Origin: a bacterium
GTDB lineage: Bacteria; UBP6; JAFGXH01
Direction of reading: 5' to 3'
Length of the DNA stretch: 26,982 bases
NCBI GenBank assembly: GCA_027064085.1
Contig: JAMOQH010000184.1
Location: 1-26,982, forward strand
The translations under genes and the position numbers were made by a program. The notes beneath the pieces were generated by a model. The model was not told where the DNA came from. It did no database searches and saw only the letters and a list, made by a program, of their open reading frames with translations. Below are positions 5,930 to 26,982 of the stretch, piece by piece; within the stretch, counting starts at the first letter, position 1; each line of letters starts with the position of its first letter.

Positions 5930-6043
5930 ATAAAAAGAGCATTGATTTTATTTGATATACAAAAAGCTAGAGTAAAGATATTTAGTGCCACTTCAATCAT
6001 ACAAACTATGTTTTCCGTGGATTTACCAGCCAAAGTCTTTTAA
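5930..6043 (+). pseudogene. Possible remnant of a nicotinamidase/isochorismatase-type gene
   Basis: Nine bases after the nrtR stop, a GGAG ribosome site (5921-5924) is followed five bases later not by ATG but by ATA, then codons for KRALILFDIQ. In isochorismatase-fold cysteine hydrolases, nicotinamidase included, the protein typically begins with (M)KRAL(hydrophobic)3-D-hydrophobic-Q, where the Asp is catalytic. The frame then runs 27 more codons of unrecognised sequence to TAA. The simplest reading is a gene whose start codon mutated from ATG to ATA and whose body was deleted. Location in an NAD operon directly after nrtR, where pncA would make sense, supports it. With only ten informative residues, chance similarity cannot be excluded. 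Confidence 0.35.
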
Positions 6044-8876: not shown

Positions 8877-11591
8877 TTACATCCATAGTTCTCTTGATTT
8901 TCCTGATACATCAATAGGTTTTTTTATCAAATACTTCTTTATTTTATTATAATTTTTTTCATTTTTAATGTATACTAATTCCCCGTCTAAGATTATATTA
9001 TTCCAGTGTTTTAGATAAGTATTTGCTAGTGTTTTGTTTTTGGCAAAATAATCAGGCACAGGAAAATATCTAATATCCTTATTATTATATAAGTTGATAT
9101 ATTCAATAACATATTTTTGATAAAAAATAGGTTTAAAAATTTGATTAATAGATGTTATAAAAATCTCACTGATTTCTTCTTTTTTTACTAAAATTGAAAA
9201 TTTGTCTTTAGACTCATTTATTTCTATAATATTTTCTATCTCTTCATTTTTGTTTATTAAACCTAAGTCAATAAATGAATAAAATATAACTTCTACTGTT
9301 TTTCTTATAAAATTTTCTTTATTGAAAGTTTTTCTTAGTAGTTTAGTTCCTGAGATTAATAAGAGTATAAGAAAAATAAAAAACTCAGCACTTCCACTTT
9401 TAAAGTTTATAAAGTCTGTTAAATGAAAAGTAAAAATAGAAGCTACAAGCATCATTATATCGGCAAATAAAATAGAGCGTAAAATGTAATGCTTAGATGT
9501 TGTTTTAGTAAAATAATTTGTATTTTTTTTAGATTCTTTTTTTTCATTTTTAGAACTATTTCTTTTTATTTTTCTTGAACTTATTTCTTTTGTATTGAAT
9601 TCAATTTTCTGGACAAAATTATCTCTATATTTTTCCCCGATCTTCCAATCCACATAGGTATCTCCTCTCTTTTTAGCAAGCTCTAAAGAGTTTTGATTTA
9701 TTATTTCTATGTGTTCAAGTTTTTCTTTTTCAAGACCTAAGTGAGATATACCTCTTTCTATTAGTCCACTAGGGGAGAGTGATAGAAACTGTTCATGCTT
9801 CTTTTTAACTCTTTTTAAATCATAATATCCGGTTTCAATATTGGGAATTATAGTAATAATTTCCCATATATTAGCTACCTTGTCGGCACGACAAGGGTCT
9901 TTTCTTAGTGCCCGTCCTCGTATTTGATTTACGGATACGAAAGAGGAAGTTACTGTAAGGTCAATAAGGGTGTTTATTCTTACATTATCATAACCTTCAC
10001 CGAGTAACGAGCGAGTACCGATAAGCAGTCTTGTCTTGTCGGTATATGTTAAGTTGGTTATGTGTTCCAGCAATTCTGTTGTATTGCTGGGATTTTCAAG
10101 TAAAAGGTAGTTTTCTTTTTCTTGAAAATTGAGATTAAACTTAATAAATTCGTTTTTTAACTCCTTATGAATCATCATTTTTTTACCTGTAATCATAATG
10201 GGTTTAAGTTCATTGTAGAGTTTAGTATTTGATATATGAATAAAAACACCACTTGCTCCGCCAAGAGATGGATCAATTATTTTTTTTAGACTTTTTTTGT
10301 TGTGTGCTTCGATAAAATCTGTAAGAACAAGTCCCTTTAGTTCTTTAGCAAGTATCCTAAATTCATTTTCAAGGATTGTTTCAACTGCTTTTATTTTAGC
10401 ATTTGATACTTGTAGGATATTTGAGATATTGTTTTTTATTTCTATGACTCTATTTTTATGTAAATTAAAGCCAAGCTTTTTCCATGTTTTGAGGATCATT
10501 TCTTTCAGTTTAGCTATTTCTGCTTGCTGTTTACAACTTGTCGGTTCTGTATTACGAGCATTGTTTTGTTCTGACATTTGAATATTGATAATATAATCAT
10601 AATAATATGCTCTGAAAAGACAGGCGTAATCATAAATAGATATATCCTCAAGCATTTCATCTTGAACGATTATTTCAACAGGAATACTTAAATCCTGATG
10701 TAGAATATATTTAATCATGGCTATTGCTATATCAGGTTCTTTAAGATAGTATTCATTAAAAGATATGGGGGTTGACTCATATAAAGGATTTTTTATGAAA
10801 AGTTCTGTATATTCGGTTAAATTGTAGTCTAAAATTAAGCTTTTTGATAGTTCATTTATTTCATTTATCAATGTATATATAGCATTTGTTTCTTTATTTA
10901 AAAAACTCAGTTCGCTATCCGTTGGAGTAACAAAATAAGGCAAATCTCTAAAAGGTGCGAGATTCCCATCTTTTACAACTGCAGGAATAGGTACCTGATA
11001 ATCTACTTCCCCCATAATTTCCAAATATACTTGTTTTTCTTTATTTGACTTATCTTTGGGTGGGGTAGCTGTTAAACCAATTACTACAACGCGATATGGA
11101 GCTTTCTTTATAAAAATTTTAATTATTTCAGCCCAGTAATTAAGCAAATGATGACATTCGTCTAGAACGATGGTTTTAAATTTATTATTAATAAGGTATT
11201 TTATGAGTTCTTCTGCATTTTTATGAAGTTTACCATTTTTATCTTTTACTGAAAAAGTTTGATAAGTTGTTGTTAATATTTCAGGATTGTTTTTTATATC
11301 AGAGCTTATCAGCTTTGTGCAGTCTTTATTGTTGATGGTATCTACTGCAAATGATTTAAATTTTTCTTCCCATTGATTTGCAATAGTTCGGTTTGGTGAT
11401 AAAATAAATGTTTTTTCCTTTAATTTTAAGAGTAAAAGTAATCCAAGAATTGTTTTTCCGCTTCCAGGAGGAGCAACTATATGGAATGTATGGTCATTTT
11501 TTTCTTTATAGTTTTTAAGCATTAAATCATAAGCGTGTTTTTGGTAGATTCTGGGGATAAGAGCTAAATTACAGTCTTTGATTGAAGTCAT
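8877..11591 (-). CDS. SF2 DEAD/DEAH-type helicase with C-terminal membrane hairpin
   Basis: A 904-residue protein. Helicase motifs: I/Walker A APPGSGKT (40-47), II DECH (144-147), III TAT (174-176), V LLIGTRSLLGEGYDNV (522-537) and VI QIRGRALRKD (556-565). Between the two RecA lobes is an unusually long insert (about 215-450). After the helicase core comes a basic linker (670-700), then two hydrophobic segments at about 704-724 and 733-752 predicted to form a membrane hairpin, then a 150-residue C-terminal domain I do not recognise. Motifs resemble the ResIII/UvrB-like SF2 branch. No nuclease or specificity subunit is adjacent, so calling it a restriction enzyme is unsupported. A membrane-tethered role in DNA or RNA handling, possibly defence, is conjecture. 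AAGG precedes the ATG. Confidence 0.85.
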   Translation of the reverse strand: MTSIKDCNLALIPRIYQKHAYDLMLKNYKEKNDHTFHIVAPPGSGKTILGLLLLLKLKEKTFILSPNRTIANQWEEKFKSFAVDTINNKDCTKLISSDIKNNPEILTTTYQTFSVKDKNGKLHKNAEELIKYLINNKFKTIVLDECHHLLNYWAEIIKIFIKKAPYRVVVIGLTATPPKDKSNKEKQVYLEIMGEVDYQVPIPAVVKDGNLAPFRDLPYFVTPTDSELSFLNKETNAIYTLINEINELSKSLILDYNLTEYTELFIKNPLYESTPISFNEYYLKEPDIAIAMIKYILHQDLSIPVEIIVQDEMLEDISIYDYACLFRAYYYDYIINIQMSEQNNARNTEPTSCKQQAEIAKLKEMILKTWKKLGFNLHKNRVIEIKNNISNILQVSNAKIKAVETILENEFRILAKELKGLVLTDFIEAHNKKSLKKIIDPSLGGASGVFIHISNTKLYNELKPIMITGKKMMIHKELKNEFIKFNLNFQEKENYLLLENPSNTTELLEHITNLTYTDKTRLLIGTRSLLGEGYDNVRINTLIDLTVTSSFVSVNQIRGRALRKDPCRADKVANIWEIITIIPNIETGYYDLKRVKKKHEQFLSLSPSGLIERGISHLGLEKEKLEHIEIINQNSLELAKKRGDTYVDWKIGEKYRDNFVQKIEFNTKEISSRKIKRNSSKNEKKESKKNTNYFTKTTSKHYILRSILFADIMMLVASIFTFHLTDFINFKSGSAEFFIFLILLLISGTKLLRKTFNKENFIRKTVEVIFYSFIDLGLINKNEEIENIIEINESKDKFSILVKKEEISEIFITSINQIFKPIFYQKYVIEYINLYNNKDIRYFPVPDYFAKNKTLANTYLKHWNNIILDGELVYIKNEKNYNKIKKYLIKKPIDVSGKSRELWM

Positions 11592-11691
11592 AAAAACCTT
11601 CTATTATAAAATCTTTAAAGAAACCAGTTTATCAAATATGTATCTTTGAATGCAAGCAAACTAAAAAATTAAGATTAATTTATTAGAGATA

Positions 11692-11745
11692 TAGTTACTT
11701 CAAGTCTGATAATGATTTATTTTGTAAACTAAACTTGAAATAAAA
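11692..11745 (+). repeat. 54-bp dispersed element, copy 1
   Basis: This stretch matches the reverse complement of 26500-26553 at 52 of 54 positions. Differences are C11701 (A in the other copy's equivalent strand) and G11737 (A). It contains the -35 (TTGAAA) of the MATE promoter. It also contains TGATAATGAT (11707-11716), which matches half of the Fur box consensus. It is intergenic and non-coding. Possible identities: shared regulator-binding site, leader or small RNA element, or short mobile remnant. Confidence 0.75.
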
Positions 11746-11763
11746 ACATATATATAGTATAAA
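11735..11763 (+). promoter_or_regulatory. Sigma70-type promoter of the MATE gene
   Basis: TTGAAA (11735-11740), a 17-bp spacer and TATAAA (11758-11763). The -35 lies at the right edge of the 54-bp repeat, including its variable base G11737, so the element could directly control this promoter. Confidence 0.6.
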
Positions 11764-11784: not shown

Positions 11785-13116
11785 TTGAATAACATCTCAA
11801 CTAACAAACCCACATATAAAAACATATTAAAACTCTCTGTACCAATTATGATAGGCATGTTTGTACATTATGCTTTTACATTTGCAGATAGATTCTTTAT
11901 TTCTACCTTAGGATTAAAACAAGCTGCAGGTGGAGCAATAAGTTCAACTTTATTTTGGGTTATTTTTACTTTTGCAGGTTTAGTTTCAGGTGGAGCAATA
12001 GCATTAGTTTCTAGAAAAACAGGCGAGCATAATAACAAAGAATTAAAAGATGCAATAGAGCAATCATTACTATTAGCCTTGATTATGGGTATTACTATTG
12101 CAATTATTGGTTATTTTACAGCAAATCAGTTATTTGCATTTTTTAATGTAGAAAAAATTGTTGCTTTTTACGGAAAAGAATATTATCAAACATTTCTTTT
12201 TGGCTATCCTATGATGTATATTTCAATAACTGTCTCTGTAATCTTTCAGGCTGTTGGAGAAACTAAAATTCCAATGTTTATTTTTTCATTTATGAGCTTA
12301 CTAAATATAGTTTTAGATCCAATTTTGATTTATGGAGTAGGGGATATCCCTAGTTTTGGAATCAGAGGTGCGGCTTATGCTTCTATTATTTCAGAAATTG
12401 TTTCAGGAATATGGATGCTTACCTTATTTTATAAAAAATTTAAAATCAACTTACTCATAAAGCCTAAACTAGATATGATAAAAAGAATTTTAAAAATTGG
12501 AGCATGGAGTGGTTTATCTGGATTTTCTCGGCCAGTATCAGGATTAGCTCTACAAAAAATAATTGCATTTTACGGTACTGCTGCTGTGGCAGGATTTGGT
12601 TTTGGAATTCAATGGTTATCTATTGCTTTTATTTTCGCGGAAGGAATTAGAGTTGCTGTTTCCACTATGGTTGGACAATATTTAGGTTCAAATAGATTAG
12701 ATTATTTGAAATTAACTATAAAAAAGGCTTTTATCCTTGGCTCAATGGCTTTAGTTGGAAGTATTCTTTTAGGAGTAATTTTTGCAGAAGAAGGTATTTC
12801 TATTTTTAGTAATGATAAAGAAGTTATAAGAATAGGGTCTTCTTACTTAAGAATTGTAATGATTTCTTTAATTTTCGATATTCCTTTAACTGTCTTTTTA
12901 GCCGTTTTTTCAGGAGCAGGGGATACAAAACCTCCTATGATTATCTCTTTTATTGCAAATTGGCCTATAAAAATTCTTATGGCCTCAATTACAACTTATA
13001 TTTTAGGAATGACAATTATTGCTGTATGGTATGCAGTTGCATTATCTATTGCAGTAGAAGGCATGGGGTTATATTTCTGGTATTTAAGAGGAAATTGGCT
13101 TAAAAAGAAAATTTAA
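11785..13116 (+). CDS. MATE family multidrug/cation antiporter
   Basis: A 443-residue, twelve-helix inner-membrane exporter of the multi-antimicrobial extrusion family (NorM/DinF-like). It exchanges organic cations or drugs for Na+ or H+. Family traits seen: an N-terminal helix with PIMIGMFVHYAFTFADRFF, two homologous six-helix halves (about 15-225 and 235-440), the QAVGETKIPMFI motif near residue 155, and its second-half counterpart FSGAGDTKPPMII near 375. Initiation is at TTG, supported by GGAGG (11775-11779) five bases upstream and by the absence of a better ATG. Substrate cannot be deduced. It diverges from the helicase gene. Confidence 0.93.
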   Translation: MNNISTNKPTYKNILKLSVPIMIGMFVHYAFTFADRFFISTLGLKQAAGGAISSTLFWVIFTFAGLVSGGAIALVSRKTGEHNNKELKDAIEQSLLLALIMGITIAIIGYFTANQLFAFFNVEKIVAFYGKEYYQTFLFGYPMMYISITVSVIFQAVGETKIPMFIFSFMSLLNIVLDPILIYGVGDIPSFGIRGAAYASIISEIVSGIWMLTLFYKKFKINLLIKPKLDMIKRILKIGAWSGLSGFSRPVSGLALQKIIAFYGTAAVAGFGFGIQWLSIAFIFAEGIRVAVSTMVGQYLGSNRLDYLKLTIKKAFILGSMALVGSILLGVIFAEEGISIFSNDKEVIRIGSSYLRIVMISLIFDIPLTVFLAVFSGAGDTKPPMIISFIANWPIKILMASITTYILGMTIIAVWYAVALSIAVEGMGLYFWYLRGNWLKKKI

Positions 13117-17480: not shown

Positions 17481-17528
17481 AGTCTTGACTTTTTTTTACT
17501 ATACTTAAAAAAAGTCTTGACTTTTTTT
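17481..17528 (+). repeat. Tandem 16-bp direct repeats with -35-like cores
   Basis: AGTCTTGACTTTTTTT occurs at 17481-17496 and again at 17513-17528, exactly 32 bp apart (about three helical turns). The inverted core AGTCAAGA follows at 17545-17552. The second repeat provides the -35 of the ATPase promoter; the first has no matching -10. This arrangement suggests a regulator site array. Confidence 0.6.
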
Positions 17529-17544
17529 AAATATAAATTAGAAT
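17517..17544 (+). promoter_or_regulatory. Promoter of the AAA/DUF4143 ATPase gene
   Basis: TTGACT (17517-17522), a 16-bp spacer and TAGAAT (17539-17544). The predicted start is about 14 bases before the ATG, with GGAGG at 17556-17560. Confidence 0.5.
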
Positions 17545-17564
17545 AGTCAAGAAATGGAGGTTTT

Positions 17565-18713: not shown

Positions 18714-18743
18714 ACATTATGTAAACTACCGTTTACATAATGT
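18714..18743 (+). terminator. Perfect 13-bp stem, 4-base loop, after the ATPase gene
   Basis: ACATTATGTAAAC (18714-18726) and GTTTACATAATGT (18731-18743) pair completely over a TACC loop, 24 bp after the ATPase stop. No T-tract follows on either strand, so it is not a canonical intrinsic terminator. It could stabilise or end the transcript, or be a protein site. Confidence 0.45.
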
Positions 18744-24440: not shown

Positions 24441-26438
24441 TCATCTTATTTCTTTCTTTGCTTCGGTATCATAGGGTATTAATGAATACAGTTTTTTAAA
24501 ATTTAACTTTGCTTTAGAAGAATCTTTTAACATTTTATACATTCTTCCTAAAAATCTATAACCATCAGGATATTTTTCCATCTCTTTCATTAAAGTTTCA
24601 AGTTTTAATAAATATGATTTAGCTTTTCCTAAATCATTTTGCCAAATAAAAATAAAATTTAAATAATATAGATATACCTTAAATTCATAATTATCTTCAA
24701 ATAAAGTAATTGCTTCATTTACATACTCTAAAGCTCTTTCATATTTTCCAACCTTAACTGCTTTTTTACATTTATTAAATAATTCTTCTGATTTAAATAA
24801 AGATTCTGCATCAAAAGTTTCACCAACACCACTATTTAATTCATTAATATATTCTTCAAGTTTTTGCTGAGTTGAAATTTTATTATATGCGGTAGAAATA
24901 TAGGTATAATATTTAGTTTTTAATTCTCTAAGTTCCTCATTAGATTCTTTATTTAACTTATCAGGATGATAATCTTTAGCCGCTTTTATATAAATCTTTC
25001 TAATCTTAGACAATGGCGTATCTTGTGAAACACCTAAAGTAACAAAATGATTATTTTCTTTCTCAATTTTTAAAATTTGAGATTTTAAAGTTTGTATTTC
25101 TTCTAAAATATTTTTTGAACTAACAAATTCTCCCTTTTGGACAAATCTAAGTTTATATAAAACATAAATTAATTTTTTGAAAACAGGTAATATCTCAGCT
25201 TTTTGTTTTAATAAAGCATTTATAAATTGCTTGGTTGTAACTTTATTATTAATTTTATTTAATAGTTTAAATTCTGTTGGTCCTAATTTTAAATACTTAT
25301 TATAACTAAATTTTCTTTCGTCTTTTATAATGACAAACTCTTCAATTTTTTTTATATGAAGCTCAACAATATCCATTGGAATCAATTTAGATGTAAATTT
25401 CCACATATGAGATAAAAAATCAATATTTAAACTTGTATCATTACTAGTAACCCCTTGCTTAAAAAGAAATTTTCCGTTATCTACTTTAAAAATTTCTTCT
25501 AATCTGTACATTACAAGCTCCTTTAATAAATCATAAATTTGAGAAGCATCTATTTTTTTTTCGGAAATCAACTTAGGAATGATTACTGTATCAGCTAAAG
25601 TTTCATCATAATGTGTAATAATATTCTTTTTTTCTTTTAAATATCTAGGTAACGACAAATCAAGTCTATTACTAGAAATATAAGCTAATTTTCCTTTTTT
25701 AAAACTAACTTCATATAAATCAGACTTTCTTGTTATTTCTAGAAGCCCTGTTAGTTTATCTAAAGAATATGTAAACAACAAAGACAGTAAAGGTTTTGTA
25801 GATAATAGTCCTTTTATATTTTCTTCTGAGAGTTTTTTAATTTTCTTAATCTCAATTTTAGGTTTTTTTTCAAAAGAACTGATTTCAGAAAAATCAATTG
25901 ATTTAATATTTTCCATTTCTTCTAAATCTTCAGCTATAACTTTTTTAACTTTTTTCGGTCTCTCCCTAACCTTTTCTTCTTTTATAGGCTTAAAGTCTTT
26001 ACCTGCTAAAATTAATTCAATTTTATTAAATAATCTTTTTTTTATCTTATTAAACTCTACAATCATATCATCTAAAATAACTTCATAATTTCCTTCAATT
26101 TTACCCTGTTTAATTAAATTTAAAAATTTTTCGTTATTAAAAGGCCCCATGGTAATATTAAAAGTAGTTTTTACTTTATATTCTGATTTTTTATTTATTA
26201 AATTTAAAAATGTCTCATTATAGAGTTCTTCTTGATCTGCGGATAAAAAAGAATCTAGATTTGGTAATATTTCTCTAATAGTTTTCCATGTTTCTTGATC
26301 TTCTGAAACTTTTTCATTTCCAGTAAATTTTTTATTATACATTATCTCTTTTAATTGTTCATATTTTAATGGACCAATGATATTTTTATCTTTTTTTATG
26401 TAGTACATTGAAAATATCTTGCTTTTTTCTTCAACCAT
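24441..26438 (-). CDS. GYF / DUF4388 (PATAN) / J-domain / TPR protein
   Basis: A 665-residue multidomain protein. It has a GYF_2 domain (about 11-57, YYIKKDKNIIGPLKYEQL), a second degenerate GYF-like unit (about 95-135, GPFNNEKFLNLIKQGKI), a charged linker (150-205), a DUF4388/PATAN-type domain (about 208-330, LTGLLEI...VSFKKGKLAYI), and a winged-helix-like region (380-440). A J-domain follows (about 462-520) with the HPD triad (491-493) that stimulates Hsp70, and TPR-like helices (550-660) end it. The combination is typical of deltaproteobacterial-type genomes and implies a link between protein-interaction modules and DnaK. Sitting tail to tail with clpB, it may serve the same proteostasis pathway, though this is inference. 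AAGGAG precedes the ATG at 26438. Confidence 0.85.
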   Translation of the reverse strand: MVEEKSKIFSMYYIKKDKNIIGPLKYEQLKEIMYNKKFTGNEKVSEDQETWKTIREILPNLDSFLSADQEELYNETFLNLINKKSEYKVKTTFNITMGPFNNEKFLNLIKQGKIEGNYEVILDDMIVEFNKIKKRLFNKIELILAGKDFKPIKEEKVRERPKKVKKVIAEDLEEMENIKSIDFSEISSFEKKPKIEIKKIKKLSEENIKGLLSTKPLLSLLFTYSLDKLTGLLEITRKSDLYEVSFKKGKLAYISSNRLDLSLPRYLKEKKNIITHYDETLADTVIIPKLISEKKIDASQIYDLLKELVMYRLEEIFKVDNGKFLFKQGVTSNDTSLNIDFLSHMWKFTSKLIPMDIVELHIKKIEEFVIIKDERKFSYNKYLKLGPTEFKLLNKINNKVTTKQFINALLKQKAEILPVFKKLIYVLYKLRFVQKGEFVSSKNILEEIQTLKSQILKIEKENNHFVTLGVSQDTPLSKIRKIYIKAAKDYHPDKLNKESNEELRELKTKYYTYISTAYNKISTQQKLEEYINELNSGVGETFDAESLFKSEELFNKCKKAVKVGKYERALEYVNEAITLFEDNYEFKVYLYYLNFIFIWQNDLGKAKSYLLKLETLMKEMEKYPDGYRFLGRMYKMLKDSSKAKLNFKKLYSLIPYDTEAKKEIR

Positions 26439-26463: not shown

Positions 26464-26492
26464 ATTATATTGTTTTTTTTTATTTATTTCAA
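26464..26492 (-). promoter_or_regulatory. Strong promoter of the GYF/J-domain gene
   Basis: On the minus strand, TTGAAA (26492-26487), a 17-bp spacer and consensus TATAAT (26469-26464), 25 bp before the ATG. The 54-bp repeat copy (26500-26553) lies immediately upstream of the -35, where an activator or UP-type element would act. Confidence 0.65.
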
Positions 26493-26499
26493 TTTTTTA

Positions 26500-26553
26500 T
26501 TTTATTTTAAGTTTAGTTTACAAAATAAATCATTATCAGACTTTAAGTAACTA
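26500..26553 (-). repeat. 54-bp dispersed element, copy 2, inverted
   Basis: The reverse complement matches 11692-11745 at 52 of 54 positions. The two differences are at 26544 and 26508. Relative to the element, the GYF/J gene here occupies the place the MATE gene occupies at copy 1. In this copy the -35-like TTGAAA of copy 1 has become TTAAAA, and the usable -35 lies further downstream. Confidence 0.75.
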
Positions 26554-26561
26554 AATTTTAA

Positions 26562-26641: not shown

Positions 26642-26982
26642 ATGAAAACAATGGTTCTAGCTCTTTCTTTTCTTTTTGCAATATCTGCACTAGCAAAAGA
26701 TTATACTATTTTAGTTGCACCTAAAAAAACAGAAGCATACAAAAATGGTAAAAAATTAAAAAATGGTGATAATATTTTTTTTAAAAACAAATTATTCAAG
26801 GCAATGAGAAAAGCGGCAGAAATTCTTTCTACTAACAAAGGTGATACCGTTAATATTAAAATCTCAGCAGGTGAATATTTTGGTAAAACAAAATCAGGTA
26901 CATGGGGATTCCCGGAAATAAAAAGCCCAAAAGGAACTTTAAGAATCTTGGGTGGATATGATAACAACTTTAAAAAAAGAGC
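26642..26982 (+). CDS. Secreted protein start, beta-helix-like, cut by window end
   Basis: An open frame from the ATG at 26642 continues past the window end, with 113 full codons visible. Residues 1-19 are a Sec signal peptide with a likely cleavage after ALA (MKTMVLALSFLFAISALA|KD). The mature part includes VNIKISAGEYFG and LRILGGYDNNFKKR. Strands of this kind, ending in GGY-x-x-x-F, are typical of the N-terminal portion of DUF1565/polymorphic outer-membrane parallel beta-helix proteins. AAGGAG (26630-26635) supports the start. Function is unknown; surface or periplasmic carbohydrate- or protein-binding roles are common for the fold. Confidence 0.75.
   Translation, partial: MKTMVLALSFLFAISALAKDYTILVAPKKTEAYKNGKKLKNGDNIFFKNKLFKAMRKAAEILSTNKGDTVNIKISAGEYFGKTKSGTWGFPEIKSPKGTLRILGGYDNNFKKR

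Follow-up and report, generated by a model that had tools for sequence, protein, structure and literature searches.

The window, that is, the whole 26,982-nucleotide stretch of DNA that was analysed, carries two copies of a short repeat in opposite orientation, each placed between divergent genes, as an earlier sequence-only reading had described. Copy 1 (11689..11745, forward strand), with the full 57 bp common to both window copies, was delimited by self-comparison of the window and lies between the gene for a DEAD/ResIII-type helicase (8877..11591, reverse strand), which reads away from it, and that for a MATE transporter (11785..13116, forward strand). Copy 2 (26500..26556, reverse strand) is flanked by the gene for a GYF_2/DUF4388/DnaJ-domain protein (24441..26438, reverse strand) and by the reading frame of a secreted-looking protein (26642..26982, forward strand), incomplete at the contig end and labelled a beta-helix protein in the earlier reading. 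The sigma70 promoters said to adjoin both copies are good candidates, as consensus matches only. The one predicted for MATE (11735..11763, forward strand) combines TTGAAA at 11735-11740 and TATAAA at 11758-11763 across 17 bp, its -35 hexamer overlapping the right end of copy 1, while the one predicted for the GYF/J-domain gene (26464..26492, reverse strand) combines TTGAAA at 26492-26487 and TATAAT at 26469-26464, again across 17 bp.

Both copies are 54/57 identical (95% complementary as an inverted pair of 57 nt) and lie 14.8 kb apart. Chance is excluded for this pair, since copy 2 is recovered in the genome-wide DNA search with E = 1.9e-19, in agreement with the earlier view that such conservation was unexpected. 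The identity of 52/54 given there for a 54-bp element, as well as both its positions, also hold. Over 11692-11745 the copies differ solely at 11701 (C/A) and 11737 (G/A), the latter within the predicted MATE -35 hexamer. These two positions do face each other in an internal inverted repeat (TTCAAGT/ACTTGAA), as had been pointed out, but the significance attached to them is lost, the C-G pair of copy 1 becoming A/A and being therefore broken rather than compensated.

The earlier count of two copies is too low: the element occurs exactly nine times in the 3.65-Mb genome, as given by a DNA search and a sequence-only model (R1), all with E <= 2.1e-9, and a sharp score gap separates them from the next match in this genome (E = 0.12). 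The R1 search placed two of them on C184 and the others at C92:6929, C137:4246, C12:2700, C193:24202, C75:15076, C61:24326 and C80:15556. Their constant part is a 38-bp core, approximately AGTT-N6-AGTCTGATAATG-N5-TATTTTGTAAACT (AGTT...GTAAACT in copy 1), which the alignment and the model search locate at 11693..11730 (forward strand) in copy 1 and at 26515..26552 (reverse strand) in copy 2. In the alignment, which has 20 invariant columns, one variable spacer separates AGTT from AGTCTGATAATG and another separates AGTCTGATAATG from TTTTGTAAACT. The starts of two blocks, TAGTT and TAGTC, are spaced one helical turn (10 bp) apart, and an inverted AGTTTAC stands at the right end. A box within the core, GTCTGATAATG, is the part also present in the sister genus, and it occupies 11704..11714 (forward strand) in copy 1 and 26531..26541 (reverse strand) in copy 2. 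Changes cluster in the spacers between blocks when all nine copies are considered (20 invariant columns versus 12.4 expected, p = 4e-4), and the clustering is weaker for the 38-bp core when the analysis is restricted to the copies other than copy 2 and the convergent one (p = 0.13). The test takes the copies to be independent of one another, although they are so only in part.

All nine copies are intergenic, in a genome whose sampled portion is 7% intergenic and 93% coding. Eight of the nine lie between divergent genes, versus 30% expected of fitting intergenic positions (p = 4e-4; null from a 260-kb genome sample with simple ORF calling). The ninth, on C61, lies between two gene ends in a convergent region and is devoid of the left block. 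Predicted promoters, all of them consensus predictions only, flank the members of the family, and the predicted -35 ahead of the element, as read by eye, usually starts ~21-32 bp past the core, and 4 bp past it in copy 1. Regarding an operator, the location at promoters is thus observed: 9/9 intergenic, 8/9 divergent and predicted promoters beside. The neighbours, some of them named from reading the frames alone, are unrelated in function: besides helicase/MATE and GYF-J/secreted protein, they comprise 2-thiouracil desulfurase (DUF523)/hypothetical, phosphoesterase lipoprotein/ComM-like, radical-SAM-like/tyrosyl-tRNA-synthetase-like protein, U32-like/M20-like peptidases, NupC/hypothetical and lipoprotein/M50B. 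No common regulon by gene function is evident among the genes flanking the nine copies. The earlier idea is supported as to an intergenic, promoter-associated element, conserved beyond chance, that may mark shared control, but not as to a regulon made up of just the genes for the helicase, MATE, the J-domain protein and the beta-helix protein, seven more copies being found beside unrelated genes.

Among relatives, box GTCTGATAATGNTT is present 4, 12 and 5 times in the family's three genomes, and none of 58 other genomes has more than one copy; a reversed-pattern control gives 0 in all three family genomes. By these counts, enrichment of box GTCTGATAATG is limited to this family. The sister-genus sites follow a consensus of about TATAnnGTCTGATAATGTTTTnG and are mostly intergenic, with no visible bias to divergent regions. 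At the one locus clearly common to the two sister-genus genomes (G001 and G002), the boxes form the centres of two perfectly conserved runs, of 18 and 19 nt, the intergenic region elsewhere being 81% identical. Conversely, the site is absent at the sister-genus orthologs of tyrS and of the J-domain gene, and further G001 loci with genes that also occur in G002 have no box there, although the neighbours often differ; proximal promoters are conserved in some of these counterparts. The helicase has no ortholog hit in G001 or G002. Altogether, the box appears to be constrained where it is kept, yet gained and lost quickly between genera. Two further observations were made in the sister genus. The two-box locus (L082:10258/10531 and L084:3041/3288) has its two boxes in the same intergenic region, and its between-box sequence is also well conserved and could contain a small RNA; in addition, the intergenic stretches L158:1217-1461, L159:460-562 and L038 ~1470 have short repeats in common, AACAGTGGGTTTTA-like ones among them, which suggests further repeat families there.

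Half of a Fur box had been noticed in the element, and the half-match is real, TGATAATGAT agreeing with half of the consensus. The element contains the TGATAAT of the 7-1-7 Fur box (TGATAATNATTATCA), and L005 and L006 reach 13/15 of such a box by manual count. Nonetheless, two TGATAAT half-sites around a central base are not found in the nine-copy and sister-genus alignments: most copies are devoid of the symmetric second half-site, it is also missing in the sister-genus boxes, and the sister-genus box GTCTGATAATGTTTT has no symmetry. With, in addition, no recognised iron gene among the neighbours, control of iron or metal genes through a Fur-family box is very improbable. A structured RNA or leader element, also suggested earlier, is scarcely credible. 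L003 does fold clearly better than shuffles (z -3.3), and L006 and L009 mildly so (z ~ -1.8), but the other six copies fold no better than shuffles and neither covariation nor compensatory changes appear across copies. The family does not preserve the TTCAAGT/ACTTGAA inverted repeat, with 52% of cells paired versus 49% in shuffles (helix 1 only). Moreover, the predicted MATE and J-gene promoters lie at the element's right end or past it, and no Rfam match was found in the window; identity with a tRNA or an Rfam family was rejected.

The 54-bp element differs in this respect from a second, distinct dispersed element, represented in the window at 5986-6022 (forward strand, 45.7 bits), which covaries strongly. 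It consists of an outer 4-bp helix, TTCAAY, a variable hairpin, TTTTMC and a closing helix; next comes a second hairpin, in which a C/T mismatch is frequent. In its nine-copy seed, chosen using the inner stem and not the outer one, 95.8% of cells pair and 23 cells show double changes versus 6.9 in shuffles; in an alignment of 50 matches, which was fitted to the structure, the corresponding values are 97.5% and 155 versus 46. About 60 copies are found in this genome (G000) at E < 0.01, among them L196:802-838, L133:3173-3207, L146:19475-19511 and L129:1520-1557, and none in G001 or G002 at E <= 1. Many copies follow a stop codon within ~20 bp, often between convergent genes, and no Rfam family matches; the family is possibly a 3'-end or terminator-linked RNA or a hairpin repeat. 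Other repeats were also seen. In the window, a perfect 13-bp inverted repeat (ACATTATGTAAAC/GTTTACATAATGT) without a T run stands at 18714-18743, just past an ATPase gene, and direct and inverted repeats around AGTCTTGACTTTTTTT occupy 17481-17552, upstream of the ATPase gene. Elsewhere, a 99-bp intergenic duplicate of 97% identity is present at L138:6648-6775 and L138:11035-11328, ~4.4 kb apart, and an intergenic stretch with the hairpin GCGGGCTTTAGCCCGC is duplicated at L136:1007-1165 and L136:10198-10348.

The main rival to a protein-binding site is the short mobile element also raised by the sequence-only reading: a very short, non-autonomous MITE- or REP-like repeat, which would multiply by copying and persist at places where its presence is tolerated by the promoters on both sides. 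Such an origin is possible, though doubtful. The element resembles RUP, BOX, SPRITE, REP and NEMIS in having several intergenic copies per genome, in being AT-rich and lineage-restricted, here to the family, and in its apparent copying. Some sub-pairs share sequence past the core, namely the window pair (57 bp), L003/L005 (right flank ATTGYTTGCAAAA) and L006/L009 (at least ~100 bp, with another, degenerate copy upstream), which argues for longer pieces having probably been duplicated at least sometimes. Orthologous regions in relatives lack the element, but the nearest genomes belong to another genus, and the flanks do not align cleanly, the G001/G002 alignments showing no clean insertion boundary. 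Weak inverted ends, AGTT...AACT, are present in most copies, but they comprise 4 bp only and are nearly invariant, hence uninformative on terminal inverted repeats. On the contrary, with 38-57 bp the element is shorter than repeats such as RUP (107 bp, PMC2229807), and it shows no conserved hairpin. MITEs typically have terminal repeats and target duplications (PMC2229807), whereas no direct repeat indicative of a target-site duplication was seen by eye at the ends of the nine copies, within the limits that AT-rich flanks set on this test, and the right-side terminal TA is present in only 5/9. No longer copy with a transposase was seen among the nine loci. Viral contigs contained no copy, and plasmids and phages gave no match over the full length; an origin from a plasmid, phage or virus was rejected, the matches to AT-rich phages (mostly Staphylococcus) and to two plasmids being partial (58-61% coverage) and taken as chance. 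Placement also differs: the short mobile repeats and IS elements of pneumococcus are over-represented between convergent genes (PMC3049150), and convergent regions are also preferred by stem-loops in bacteria generally (PMC1590033), while here 8/9 copies lie between divergent genes.

A chromosome-organising or replication-linked site that needs DNA untranscribed from either side would explain a divergent preference independent of gene function, and it would fit the unrelated neighbours as well as the sister-genus boxes, which are concentrated on a small number of contigs, those of a given contig mostly sharing one orientation; as contigs are unordered, this placement is known per contig and not along the chromosome. 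This reading is nevertheless improbable, given that the window copies are in opposite orientation 14.8 kb apart and that sister-genus boxes also occur in co-directional regions. The same-orientation clusters likewise prompted consideration of an integron cassette array, which was rejected: attC core sites (RYYYAAC/GTTRRRY) are absent from the consensus on both strands, as judged by eye, and the genes are ordinary ones in both orientations. An invertible segment between the window copies was discarded as a general explanation, the other seven contigs having no second copy except a weak degenerate one beside that on C193.

The best-supported reading, to which we give about an even chance, is that the element is an operator: a protein-binding site, specific to the lineage, that is placed between back-to-back promoters and has been duplicated on occasion. 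Such a site is favoured because the placement, the lack of a conserved fold and the lack of visible target duplication depart from mobile repeats and stem-loops. With operators of divergent gene pairs the element shares a sequence-conserved site between two promoters, block-wise constraint and helically phased repeats; it differs from them in being a candidate site without a known regulator, with genes of no common function and rapid turnover between genera. An operator in such a place could affect both promoters. The blocks TAGTT, TAGTCTGATAATG and AGTTTAC (inverted) would be contacted by a dimeric or oligomeric DNA-binding protein, and the gene ahead usually has its predicted -35 ~20-30 bp further on. 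Occasional local copying, rather than shared neighbour function, would have taken the site into new intergenic regions and would account for both the near-identical window pair and the unrelated neighbours. Pointing away from an operator are the lack of an evident function common to the neighbours, the sister-genus tyrS and J-domain orthologs devoid of the site, and the sister-genus box not being visibly biased to divergent regions; the flanks that some copy pairs share beyond the core, not needed for binding, point away from a pure binding site.

A more far-reaching version, rather unlikely as it stands, is that a lineage-specific global DNA-binding protein controls or insulates divergent promoter pairs regardless of their function, its sites being dispersed by copying and the network being rewired by a minimal mobile operator. 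Were the element mobile, it would be a dispersed repeat of unusually small size with a preference for promoter regions. Were it an operator, it would point to a regulator, as yet uncharacterised, in a low-GC lineage, and to binding sites that spread and are lost from one genus to another.
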